Program-made: the position numbers and the translations under genes
Part shown: piece by piece, positions 644 through 22,333 of the stretch
How positions within the stretch are numbered: the stretch's first letter is position 1
Layout of the letters: each line of letters opens with the position of its first letter
Notes under the pieces: model-generated
The model's input: only the letters and a program-made list of their open reading frames with translations
What the model was told of the DNA's origin: nothing
Databases searched by the model: none
Assembly (NCBI GenBank): GCA_036381035.1
Contig: DASVDQ010000073.1
Coordinates: forward strand, 1 to 34,598
Direction: 5' to 3'
Source of the DNA: Trueperaceae bacterium
Lineage (GTDB): Bacteria > Deinococcota > Deinococci > Deinococcales > Trueperaceae
DNA length: 34,598 nt

Positions 644-1831
644 ATGTCCTCATTGCGCGAGCGCTTGTCGCGCTGGCTGAGTCCCAGGATCGAGGCCGTC
701 GGTCTCGAGGTCGGGACGAGCGCGCTGAAGGTGGTGGAGCTGCGACCAGGCACCCCGCCCTCGCTGAGCGCGCTGGCGTTGCGGCCGATGCCGCCCGGCC
801 TCATCCAGGACGACCAGGTGACCGACGCCCAGGGCTTGGCCGAGGAGATCAAGGCCCTGTTCCACGACGCCGGCATCAGCCGGCGTTTCACGGTCACCGC
901 GGTGAGCAACCGCCAGGCGATCACGAGGAACATCCACGTGCCGCGCATGACGGTCCAGGAGCTCGACGAGGCCATCAAGTGGGAGGCGGAGCGCTACATC
1001 CCCTTCCCCATCGACGAGGTCATGCTCGACTACTTCGTCCTCGACAACCCCGAGGACGTCGAGGAGGGCGGCCAGCTCGAGGTCGTGATCGCCGCGGCGC
1101 GGCTCGACGAGGTCACGCAGCAGGTCGAGTACCTGAAGCAGGCGGGCCTCGAGCCCTACGTCATAGACGTCAAGCCGTTCTCGCTCCTCCGCTCCCTGAA
1201 GGGCTCGCTGCTCGGCGAGCACCTCACGCGGACGACGCTGGCCGGCGACCTCTACACGGAGGCCAACGAGATCGGCGTGGTCCTCGAGATCGCCGCCAGC
1301 ACCTCGACGGTCACGCTCGTGCGGGGCCAGCGCGTGCTGATGAACCGCAACATCAACGTCTCGGGCGACGACTTCACGGCCGCGATCCAGCGCGCCTTCG
1401 GGCTGGACTTCGACAGCGCCGAGGAGGTCAAGATCGAGTACGGCACCGCTACGATCCCCACCGAGGACGAGGAGGACCTCCTCAACTTCGACGCCAAGCG
1501 CGAGCAGTTCTCCCCCGGACGCGTCTACGAGGCGCTGCGCCCGGTGCTCGTCGAGCTGACGACGGAGATCAGGCGCTCGCTCGAGTTCTTCCGCGTCCAG
1601 AGCGGCGACGCGAACATCAGCCGCATGCTCGTCACGGGCGGCGGCGCCAAGCTGCGCGGGCTGCCCGAGGCCATCGGCGACGCGCTCGGCTTCCGCGTCG
1701 AGCTCGGGGACCCGTGGCTGACCATCAACGTGGACGAGAACCGCTTCGACACGCAGTACCTGAAGAAGGTCGCGTCCGAGTTCGCGGTGCCTCTCGGACT
1801 GGCGCTGCGGGGGGTGGCGGGCGTTGACTGA
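644..1831 (+). CDS. pilM: Type IV pilus assembly protein PilM (actin-like ATPase)
   Basis: This encodes a 395-residue cytoplasmic actin-fold protein of the type IV pilus machine. The N-terminal GLEVGTSALKVVELR segment is the phosphate-1 loop typical of PilM/FtsA-like proteins, and VTGGGAKLRGLPEAI near the C-terminus is the second nucleotide-binding motif. PilM binds the short cytoplasmic tail of PilN and links the cytoplasmic motor to the inner-membrane PilN-PilO complex. The length is slightly above the usual 350-380. ATG at 644 is chosen for its GAGGAGGAG ribosome binding site. It is the first gene of the pil operon. A 131-bp spacer separates it from pilN, whereas all later junctions in the operon overlap or touch. 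Confidence 0.96.
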   Translation: MSSLRERLSRWLSPRIEAVGLEVGTSALKVVELRPGTPPSLSALALRPMPPGLIQDDQVTDAQGLAEEIKALFHDAGISRRFTVTAVSNRQAITRNIHVPRMTVQELDEAIKWEAERYIPFPIDEVMLDYFVLDNPEDVEEGGQLEVVIAAARLDEVTQQVEYLKQAGLEPYVIDVKPFSLLRSLKGSLLGEHLTRTTLAGDLYTEANEIGVVLEIAASTSTVTLVRGQRVLMNRNINVSGDDFTAAIQRAFGLDFDSAEEVKIEYGTATIPTEDEEDLLNFDAKREQFSPGRVYEALRPVLVELTTEIRRSLEFFRVQSGDANISRMLVTGGGAKLRGLPEAIGDALGFRVELGDPWLTINVDENRFDTQYLKKVASEFAVPLGLALRGVAGVD

Positions 1832-1895
1832 CCTGGAGCTACTCCCCGAGACCACGCAGCCGGGCGCAGAGCGCCGTGGGGGCGGTGACCGATGA
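1824..1895 (+). CDS. Possible 23-residue leader ORF resembling the PilN N-terminus (unit 1)
   Basis: A TTG codon at 1824, overlapping the end of pilM, opens a 23-codon frame reading (M)TDLELLPETTQ..., compared with MININLLPKNL at the real PilN start. Its TGA (1893-1895) overlaps the ATG of the next mini-ORF as ATGA. A G-rich run lies upstream, but the ribosome binding site is weak and TTG is a poor start. Similarity to PilN is short (E/N-LLP-E/K). It is offered as the most degenerate of three tandem units, not as an established gene. Confidence 0.2.
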   Translation: MTDLELLPETTQPGAERRGGGDR

Positions 1896-1966
1896 CCAAC
1901 GTCCTCCCCAAGCACCACACAAGCGGCGGCGGGTTCGCGGCTCGCCCTAGGGGAGATCGTCGATGA
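1892..1966 (+). CDS. Possible 24-residue leader ORF resembling the PilN N-terminus (unit 2)
   Basis: ATG at 1892 opens a 24-codon frame beginning MTNVLPKHH. Its TGA (1964-1966) overlaps the pilN ATG as ATGA. The DNA aligns with the start of pilN: GATGA(C/T)CAAC(G/A)TC, a 6-bp gap, an identical CTCCCCAAG, and then an identical GGCGGGTTCGCG. This looks like a decayed duplicate of the pilN 5' end, offset by 71 bp. Only a weak GGCGGTG-type ribosome binding site precedes it. It could be a translated coupling peptide, a PilM-binding decoy, or simply a duplication scar. Confidence 0.3.
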   Translation: MTNVLPKHHTSGGGFAARPRGDRR

Positions 1967-2589
1967 TCAACATCAACCTCCTCCCCAAGAACCTCAGGCG
2001 GGTTCGCGAGCCCGGGTACTGGCGGCTGCTGATCGTCGTCTTCCCGCTGCTCGTGCTCGGCGTGGCGGCACTGCTGCAGTACTTCGCCAGCACCACCGAG
2101 GCGAACCTCCAGCGGGAGAAGCTGGCCCGCGAGGACCAGCTCGCGCTGCTCCAGCCCTTCCTGCGCGAGCAGCGGGACCTGCTGGCGCGTCAGCGGGAGC
2201 TCAACGAGCTGATCGCCGTCGCGCGCTCGGTCCGCGAGAACCGCATCGTGTGGACCGGTGAGATCGCCGGGCTGCTCGAGACCCTGCCCGCGCAGGGGGC
2301 GTCGGGCCGGCCGAACATCGACTTCAGGCAACTGAGCATGTCGGCGGTGGTCCCGCCGCGGGCCGACCCCAACCGCTACGAGGGAAGACCGATCGTCGCC
2401 GAGATGAACATCAGCGGCACGGTGGTCTCCACCGAGGTGCTCGCCCAGTTCATCCGCGCCCTGGAGAACTCGACCGACTACGGCGTCGCGTTCCAGAACG
2501 CCCAGCGCCAGGCCGACACGGACCTCTACGACTACTCGCTCACTGTGGGCGCCATCGCCGAGGACGCCGCCTCTGGGGGCCAGCGGTGA
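1963..2589 (+). CDS. pilN: Type IV pilus inner-membrane assembly protein PilN
   Basis: This is a 208-residue bitopic inner-membrane protein. The cytoplasmic tail MININLLPKNL carries the INLLP motif that docks into PilM in the PilN family. A transmembrane helix spans about residues 20-42, followed by a coiled coil at about 46-90 rich in Leu, Arg, Gln and Glu. A ferredoxin-like periplasmic domain then pairs with PilO. ATG at 1963 is preferred for the exact family N-terminus and an AGGGGAGA ribosome binding site six bases upstream. The start overlaps the stop of a 24-codon mini-ORF (ATGA). The stop overlaps the pilO start (GTGA). Confidence 0.95.
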   Translation: MININLLPKNLRRVREPGYWRLLIVVFPLLVLGVAALLQYFASTTEANLQREKLAREDQLALLQPFLREQRDLLARQRELNELIAVARSVRENRIVWTGEIAGLLETLPAQGASGRPNIDFRQLSMSAVVPPRADPNRYEGRPIVAEMNISGTVVSTEVLAQFIRALENSTDYGVAFQNAQRQADTDLYDYSLTVGAIAEDAASGGQR

Positions 2590-3176: not shown

Positions 3177-4481
3177 ATGCGACTTTCCAGGACGGCCCGC
3201 TTCCTCATCGCCGCCCTCCTGATCGCGGCGGCGGCCTTCGTGTGGGTCAACCTCTTCAACCAGACCAGGACCGCTGAGCCGACGCAGGCCGCCGGCGAGC
3301 CCGCCCCCATAAGCGTCCCGAACGGCGCCGCCGCCCCGCCGGGCGCCGCCGCGCCGGGTGCCGCCGCGGGTCAGGCCCCGGCCGGGCCCGCGGGCGCCGA
3401 GGCGTCGGCCGGGGGCCAGGCCGGCCAGGCGGGCGCGGAAGGCGCTCAGGCCGCCGCCGGCGAGGGCCAGGAGGGCGCCGCGCCGCTGGCGCCGCCCGTC
3501 GTCGTGGCCGAGGGCGCCCAGGTGGTGACCCGCGAGCTCGTGATCGACGAGCTGCCCTTCCTCGTCCTGGGGCCGCCCGAGGGCGGCGCCGAACAGGCCG
3601 CGGCGGAGGGCGAGGGCGCATCGCGCCCGCAGGCCACGCAGCGGGCGACGATCAACCCGTTCTCCCCCGTCGTGGTGCAGGCTCCGGCCGCCCCGCGGCA
3701 GGAGGTGGCGGCCCAGCCGCCCGCGTCCACGCCGGTGGTGGAGGTCGTCGCCGAGGCGCCGCCCCCCAGGCAGCCGGTGACGCAGGCCGCGCCGCGCGCT
3801 CCGGCCGAGCCGGTCAGGGCGCCGGCGCCGCGCACGGTCGCACCGGCCGGTCCCGTGGCTGCAGACCTCCCGCGGGCGCTGCCCGGCGGCGTGCTCCCCT
3901 CGACGCCGCAGATCCTGCGCGACGCCCGCAGCCAGCCGACCGTCGTCGAGCCGGAGGCGCCCGACGTCGGCGAGCTCGCCGCCCTGCGGGAGCCCACCGA
4001 CGAGGGCGGTCCGGAGCCGCTCGGGCCCGGTGGGGCTCAGCCGGCCGAGGCGGAGGCCCCCGCGCCCGACCTCGGCGAGCTGGCAGCCATACGCGAGCCA
4101 GGCGAGGACGCCGCGGTGCAGGTCGCGCCCGTCGACGTGGCGCCGCAGGCCGCGGCCGCCGCGGTGCCCGACCCGCTCGGGCCCGGCAGGTCGGAGGAGG
4201 CGCGCGCCGACGCCAACCCGTCCAACGCCCTGCCGCTCGTCGTGGGCGCCGACCCGCTCAGCCGCTACCTGCGCGACAACGACGTGCGCTTCACGGGCAC
4301 GGTGCTCGGTCCGCTCAGCGTCGGCGTCTTCCGCTCCTCGGTCTACGCGGCGCCGGTCGTCCTGACGCTGGGACAGGCGCTGCCGGACACCGACATCATC
4401 CTCTCCGACCTGCGGGGCTACGAGGCCCGCTTCACGCAGGGAGACAGGACCCAGACCCTCTCGCTGGACCTCAGGCGGTGA
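3177..4481 (+). CDS. PilP/PilW-like pilus protein with long Ala/Pro-rich linker
   Basis: The 434-residue product occupies the pilP/pilW position between pilO and pilQ. It begins with a membrane anchor at about residues 9-29 (FLIAALLIAAAAFVWVNLF). A roughly 310-residue low-complexity linker follows, rich in Ala, Pro, Gly and Glu. It ends in a compact C-terminal domain at about 348-434 (DPLSRYLRDNDVRFTGTVLG... LTLGQALPDTDIILSDLRGY) with the beta-strand character of PilP homology domains. PilP-type proteins bridge the inner-membrane PilNO complex and the PilQ secretin; the long linker could span the periplasm. In Thermus this slot is filled by a protein named PilW, but homology here is judged by position and architecture only. 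Two 12-residue repeats occur in the linker (residues 262 and 297). Confidence 0.75.
   Translation: MRLSRTARFLIAALLIAAAAFVWVNLFNQTRTAEPTQAAGEPAPISVPNGAAAPPGAAAPGAAAGQAPAGPAGAEASAGGQAGQAGAEGAQAAAGEGQEGAAPLAPPVVVAEGAQVVTRELVIDELPFLVLGPPEGGAEQAAAEGEGASRPQATQRATINPFSPVVVQAPAAPRQEVAAQPPASTPVVEVVAEAPPPRQPVTQAAPRAPAEPVRAPAPRTVAPAGPVAADLPRALPGGVLPSTPQILRDARSQPTVVEPEAPDVGELAALREPTDEGGPEPLGPGGAQPAEAEAPAPDLGELAAIREPGEDAAVQVAPVDVAPQAAAAAVPDPLGPGRSEEARADANPSNALPLVVGADPLSRYLRDNDVRFTGTVLGPLSVGVFRSSVYAAPVVLTLGQALPDTDIILSDLRGYEARFTQGDRTQTLSLDLRR
3960..4100 (+). repeat. Internal repeat in the PilP/PilW-like linker
   Basis: PDVGELAALREP (codons 3960-3995) recurs as PDLGELAAIREP (codons 4065-4100), 35 codons apart. 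Each is followed within about 25 codons by a (E/D)PLGPG motif. Codon-level differences such as gcc/gca and gtc/ctc show that the copies have diverged. The conserved segment is predicted helix-like inside an otherwise disordered linker, so it may be a short binding motif. Confidence 0.7.
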
Positions 4482-22060: not shown

Positions 22061-22177
22061 TCACCCCTGCCTCTGCTTGTGCTTCGGGTTCACGCTGCAG
22101 ATCACGTAGACCCGTCCGTGCCGGCGGATGACCTTGCACTTGTCGCACATGGGTTTGACGGATGCCCGCACCTTCAT
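22061..22177 (-). CDS. rpmJ: 50S ribosomal protein L36 (zinc-binding form)
   Basis: A 38-residue protein that binds 23S rRNA as a zinc ribbon. It begins [20 protein letters not shown] and ends [10 protein letters not shown]. The ligands Cys11, Cys14, Cys27 and His33 are present, so this is the C+ (zinc) type. Its ATG shares one base with the TGA of an upstream 24-codon mini-ORF (TGATG) that copies its first seven codons exactly. There is no strong ribosome binding site directly before it, so coupling to the mini-ORF chain may drive translation. It occupies the standard infA-rpmJ-rpsM position. Confidence 0.96.
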
Positions 22178-22251
22178 CAGTACGCCCCCGAGACGTGCGC
22201 GCACTTGTCGCACGCGTTCACTTGCGGTTCGACGGATGCCCGCACCTTCAT
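22177..22251 (-). CDS. 24-residue L36-N-terminus-like mini-ORF (proximal copy)
   Basis: ATG 22251 to TGA 22177-22179. It begins [10 protein letters not shown], identical to L36 in its first seven residues, contains a CDKC zinc-knuckle half at residues 14-17, and stops after 24 codons. Its ATG overlaps the TGA of the distal mini-ORF, and its TGA overlaps the rpmJ ATG (TGATG at both ends). Only a GGGGG run serves as a possible ribosome binding site. It may be a translated coupling peptide or a non-functional duplicate. Confidence 0.45.
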
Positions 22252-22325
22252 CAGTACGCCCCCGAGACGTGCGCGCACTTGTCGCACGCGTTCACTTGCG
22301 GTTCGACGGATGCCCTGACCTTCAT
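22251..22325 (-). CDS. 24-residue L36-N-terminus-like mini-ORF (distal copy)
   Basis: ATG 22325 lies nine bases after the infA stop, with an AGGAG ribosome binding site formed across that stop (spacer of five). The encoded peptide is identical to the proximal copy. Its two DNA differences, GTC AGG instead of GTG CGG for Val-Arg, are both synonymous. The TGA overlaps the next ATG. It has the best initiation signal of the chain and so is the likely ribosome entry point for the mini-ORFs and rpmJ. Confidence 0.5.
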
Positions 22326-22333
22326 CCCGACTC

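Follow-up and report, generated by a model that had tools for sequence, protein, structure and literature searches.

Termination-reinitiation couples the translation of neighboring genes over short distances. According to PMC10666635, the final 15 nt of the gene upstream are sufficient for it, and a gap of ~20 nt nearly abolished coupling in both E. coli and Haloferax. The pilM-pilN pair in the stretch of DNA analyzed here (34,598 nt, hereafter the window) lies outside this range. The two genes, which are members of a type IV pilus operon, are separated by a gap of 131 nt, and they fall within the coupling range only link by link, via two mini-ORFs in the spacer called unit 1 and unit 2. The spacer very probably consists of tandem duplications of a pilM-pilN junction that once overlapped by 8 nt, with unit 1 and unit 2 as decayed copies. 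The features of the locus are as follows.

644..1831, + strand: pilM, 395 aa (TIGR01175, 2.8e-103; PF11104 PilM_2, 1.4e-57; PDB 2ych PilM, 5.7e-110)
1809..1817, + strand: GGGGGGTGG, Shine-Dalgarno-like site within pilM (LRGV codons), serving the ancestral pilN start
1824..1831, + strand: TTGACTGA, ancestral overlap, 8 nt, between the pilM stop and the start of pilN (from the alignment of 96 genomes)
1824..1895, + strand: unit 1, apparent relic of the original pilN start, TTG start, 23 aa, MTDLELLPETTQPGAERRGGGDR
1892..1895, + strand: ATGA junction of unit 1 and unit 2, read from the sequence
1892..1966, + strand: unit 2, second worn pilN-start copy, ATG start, 24 aa, MTNVLPKHHTSGGGFAARPRGDRR
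1949..1955, + strand: AGGGGAG, Shine-Dalgarno-like site ahead of the current pilN start, duplex -8.4 kcal/mol
1963..1966, + strand: ATGA junction of unit 2 and pilN, read from the sequence
1963..2589, + strand: pilN, 208 aa, ATG start (PF18222, 3e-16)

The present PilN has an intact MININLLPK motif and is up to 76% identical to the PilN of relatives. The duplex energy of its AGGGGAG site is similar to those of pilO (-8.4 kcal/mol) and of the gene after pilO (-9.2 kcal/mol). The GGGGGGTGG site within pilM has a duplex energy of -13.9 kcal/mol, and that of relatives ranges from -8.5 to -15.7. In positions 1600-2200, Rfam gave no match and a consensus search gave no promoters and no terminators; the RNA structure of positions 1800-2000 was not more stable than that of shuffles (z=0.39). 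Two other frames in the window deserve mention. Within the pil operon, pilO and the secretin flank a 434-aa frame rich in Ala, Pro, and Gly (3177-4481); it has no Pfam or NCBIfam match and is probably a PilP-like or scaffold protein. Positions 4-375 hold the 3' part of an intein-containing dnaB helicase gene; here the DnaB C-terminus comes directly after the intein's C-terminal splicing region (TIGR01443, 4.3e-09).

Both mini-ORFs resemble the start of pilN. The original prediction placed two short frames with ATGA joins in the spacer and aligned unit 2 with the 5' DNA of pilN, and both observations hold. The block CTCCCCAAG is found at 1904-1912 and again at 1981-1989, and GGCGGGTTCGCG at 1928-1939 and again at 1997-2008. 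In local alignment with the pilN 5' end, unit 2 scored z=8.5 and unit 1 scored z=5.9, and in neither case was any of 2000 dinucleotide shuffles as good. Relative to pilN, unit 2 has lost one ATCAAC hexamer and gained 8 nt ahead of GGCGGGTTCGCG. When gene starts were scanned for upstream matches, pilN scored top in the window and second among 307 predicted genes in 327 kb. Further evidence comes from a profile built from the pilM-pilN junctions of the seven nearest relatives and searched against the 34.6-kb window. The best match was the pilN copy (1942-2031, E 7.6e-20), the second best was unit 1 (1785-1853, E 1e-10), and the third was a weak match at unit 2 (1884-1938, E 0.094). Counted from the TTG at 1824, unit 2 starts at +68 nt and the present pilN ATG (1963) at +139 nt. 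Pfam found nothing in either mini-ORF peptide.

What did the junction look like before it was duplicated? Across the family and the phylum Deinococcota, 96 pilM-pilN junctions were read. The two genes overlap in 94 of them, by 8 nt in 91 and by 4 nt (GTGA) in three. The 8-nt overlap reads TTGATTAA in 45 junctions, TTGATTAG in 39, TTGGTTAA in six, and GTGGTTAA in one. The present genes do not overlap in just two cases, the window and G001; the latter is a draft genome from another genus of the same family (locus L029). However, the TTG of unit 1 still forms an 8-nt overlap with the pilM stop, reading TTGACTGA where most relatives read TTGATTAA or TTGATTAG. Unit 1 is thus the original pilN start, and the present start has been displaced. 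In agreement with this, unit 1 sits in the orthologous position (GTTGACTGACCTGGAGCTACTCCCC vs GTTGATTAACATCAACCTGCTCCCC in relative L005). The claim that the spacer holds tandem copies of the pilN start stands, but unit 1 occupies the original start position and is not an extra copy.

The window and G001 are also the only junctions with an ATG-started pilN; the remaining ones use TTG or GTG. As long as the genes overlap, the penultimate codon of pilM also supplies the initial two bases of the pilN start (CTT GAT TAA), so that an ATG would alter a PilM residue (e.g. Leu to His). Duplication of the junction would remove this tie between the pilN start and the PilM codon. The 8-nt TTG overlap has been kept nearly phylum-wide, a pattern suggesting that translational coupling of PilM and PilN is under selection.

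Unit 2 and the pilN of the window have the block GGCGGGTTCGCG in common, and in the nearest relatives the sequence is AGGCGCGTGCGCG or similar, indicating that the copy derived from the pilN of this lineage. The pilM side of the duplicated unit is less clear. The window's own pilM tail matched the spacer at only z=0.9, so this part of the unit is worn and the upstream breakpoint is uncertain; an alignment to the L005 junction, however, continues beyond the pilN part and reaches into the tail of pilM. Together, the junction comparisons demonstrate the origin, the direction, and the lineage-specificity of the duplication.

G001 went through a similar change on its own. A junction duplication of 67 nt gave it a spacer of 59 nt and one 24-aa mini-ORF ahead of an ATG-started pilN. 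The spacer holds a copy of the genome's own pilM tail ending GAGGTGTTAGCC (z=7.5, 0/2000 shuffles) and a degenerate pilN start (LIKFNLLSRTF...); the stop of this mini-ORF and the new ATG of pilN overlap by 8 nt. The PilM tree places the window as sister to genus g8 (support 95/99), in which the overlap is kept in all six genomes, and G001 sits on a long branch outside the group formed by the window and g8. The window and G001 therefore represent two separate events.

The arrangement is very probably explained by duplications of ~68-71 nt each that spanned the pilM-pilN junction. Such a duplication keeps both genes whole because the first copy carries the end of pilM plus a truncated pilN start, and the last copy retains the complete pilN. 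At least two duplications took place in the window lineage; its genus is represented by one genome, and intermediate stages are not visible. Replication slippage or unequal exchange may have made the copies. Unit 1, which has the original TTG, and unit 2, the intermediate copy, then decayed; pilN now begins at ATG 1963, has a separate ribosome-binding site, and presumably can initiate on its own.

The window contains a parallel case. Tandem Repeats Finder identified a 74-nt repeat at 22152-22326 (97%), which corresponds to copies of the start of rpmJ behind infA.

22251..22325, - strand: first copy of the rpmJ start, a mini-ORF of 24 aa, at the ancestral rpmJ position behind infA
22177..22251, - strand: second mini-ORF copy of the rpmJ start, identical to the first in 72/74 bases, with TGATG junctions
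22061..22177, - strand: rpmJ (ribosomal protein L36), downstream of the two start copies

The two copies encode the same 24-aa peptide twice, each stop overlaps the next start as TGATG, and the copy adjacent to rpmJ matched the head of rpmJ with z=10.1. The infA-rpmJ spacer is 156 nt long in the window vs 7-30 nt in 28 relatives. In other words, duplication of a gene start is not tied to PilM. Is it then a genome-wide habit? Most of the other tight co-directional junctions of the window were unchanged relative to close relatives. In the window and ~292 kb of stretches sampled from the genome, 307 predicted genes were scanned for start duplications. The scan, which misses rpmJ because it needs clearly gene-like frames, returned only pilN and two further hits that were weak or unclear, L151:5511 (an exact repeat of 29 nt) and L163:1766 (within a 36-nt tandem array). 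A rampant habit was therefore rejected, with no clear further case in the ~292 kb sampled. The mini-ORFs at pilN in the window, at pilN in G001, and at rpmJ all have 23-24 codons, in units of 67-74 nt. Given only about three independent events, these common sizes may be a coincidence.

Do the joins and the peptides indicate a function? One possibility is that they form a translational relay, in which ribosomes would reinitiate in turn at TTG 1824, ATG 1892, and ATG 1963, each of which overlaps the preceding stop. The mini-ORFs would then be kept for the passage of ribosomes and not for their peptides, an idea compatible with an origin by duplication. We consider it possible, though less likely than relics with independent initiation of pilN. 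The phylum-wide 8-nt overlap suggests selection for coupling, which a spacer of 131 nt would otherwise break, as reinitiation nearly fails at gaps of ~20 nt in model organisms (PMC10666635). Moreover, every mini-ORF in the window, in G001, and at rpmJ ends at the next start, and each pilN-type start has a Shine-Dalgarno-like site ahead of it. However, such joins need no selection. When all 55-90-nt duplications spanning the junctions of relatives were simulated, 63-69% yielded a mini-ORF that stopped at or beside the next start, a frequent outcome because the TTGATTAA start sequence has stops in both other frames. The chance that a shuffled spacer keeps an open frame up to the next start is 0.60 for unit 1, 0.83 for unit 2, and 0.13 for G001. 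Furthermore, pilN is equipped with an ATG and a Shine-Dalgarno-like site of its own, and ribosomes should be lost at every reinitiation step. The broader proposal that duplication of tight or overlapping junctions is a recurrent loosening route in this family, with mini-ORFs of 23-24 codons relaying ribosomes and the start freed to change from TTG to ATG, is distinctly doubtful.

The favored reading is that the mini-ORFs are relics and that pilN is initiated independently, as its AGGGGAG site and ATG would allow. The mini-ORFs would then be leftovers of tandem duplication whose peptides have no function, and the peptides have the properties that decay predicts. In the N-terminal motif [ML]IxxNLLPK, N5, L6, and P8 were invariant in 95/95 PilN N-termini. 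Unit 1 (LTDLELLPE) has N5 changed to E and K9 to E, unit 2 is two residues short and has L6 changed to V, and the G001 copy has P8 changed to S. The codon score per codon was -0.18 for unit 1 and -0.27 for unit 2, as compared with 0.40 for the first 24 codons of pilN; among 24-codon windows of real genes the 5th percentile is 0.14, and both units score lower. A decayed duplication had also been offered in the original prediction as a fallback, and the altered motif, the codon use, and the single overlapped junction of relatives bear it out.

The same results speak against the peptides that the original prediction put first, which would be translated from the mini-ORFs and occupy the PilN site of PilM as a decoy or chaperone. 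In favor of this idea, the mini-peptides resemble the PilN N-terminus, PMC5805733 is cited for it, and unit 2 keeps NVLPK. However, residues that never vary in PilN are changed in unit 1, unit 2, and the G001 copy, the codon use of both units is outside the range of real genes, and the infA-rpmJ case involves no PilM. Conservation of mini-ORFs in pilM-pilN spacers across Deinococcota, the comparison proposed along with this idea, was not found: the frames are absent from 94 of the 96 junctions, so that they do not behave as a conserved small protein gene. A PilM-docking function is thus very improbable. False tandem copies introduced by the assembler are just as hard to credit. The genome is a 170-contig draft, and errors are known to arise at tandem repeats; however, the three pilN-type starts of the window have diverged from one another, unlike a misassembly of identical reads, and the independent genome G001 has its own version. 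Chance similarity, which runs of G and C can make common in G+C-rich DNA, is refuted for unit 1 and unit 2 by the shuffles and by the rank of pilN in the genome sample.

A decayed tandem duplication makes the locus a clear example of a conserved overlap within one complex that was lost via junction copying with both proteins intact. This copying separates the pilN start codon from the last codons of pilM. It also carries a caution, as short frames that look like the N-terminus of the next gene can be relics and not regulatory peptides. The two independent pilN cases together with infA-rpmJ make the passage of ribosomes via leftover mini-ORFs testable, and if ribosomes do pass in this way, pilM-pilN coupling would outlive the loss of the overlap.

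How does the locus compare with known systems? The pilM-pilN stop/start overlap of the phylum, in genes of one complex, is like the overlapping co-directional pairs and termination-reinitiation pairs treated in PMC6728339 and PMC10666635. Unlike in those coupled pairs, it is a relic start that takes part in the overlap in the window; pilN itself follows after another 131 nt, and any coupling would need two extra steps. The mini-peptides derive from the same segment as the PilM-PilN docking motif seen in PDB 2ych and in the PilM-PilN fusion 5eou, but PilN-invariant residues are changed or missing in them. As in the losses of gene overlap described in PMC4161906, a conserved overlap has been lost in one lineage. 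The mechanism in that study is movement of the start or stop codon, and the word 'duplication' is absent from its text, whereas the overlap in the window was resolved by tandem duplication of the junction. The head-to-tail copies of ~70 nt, with those at rpmJ 97% alike, otherwise resemble the short tandem duplications generated by replication slippage or unequal exchange. What sets the copies in the window apart from ordinary short tandem duplications is that they sit exactly on gene junctions, which may reflect survivorship, as this would favor duplications that leave both genes intact.
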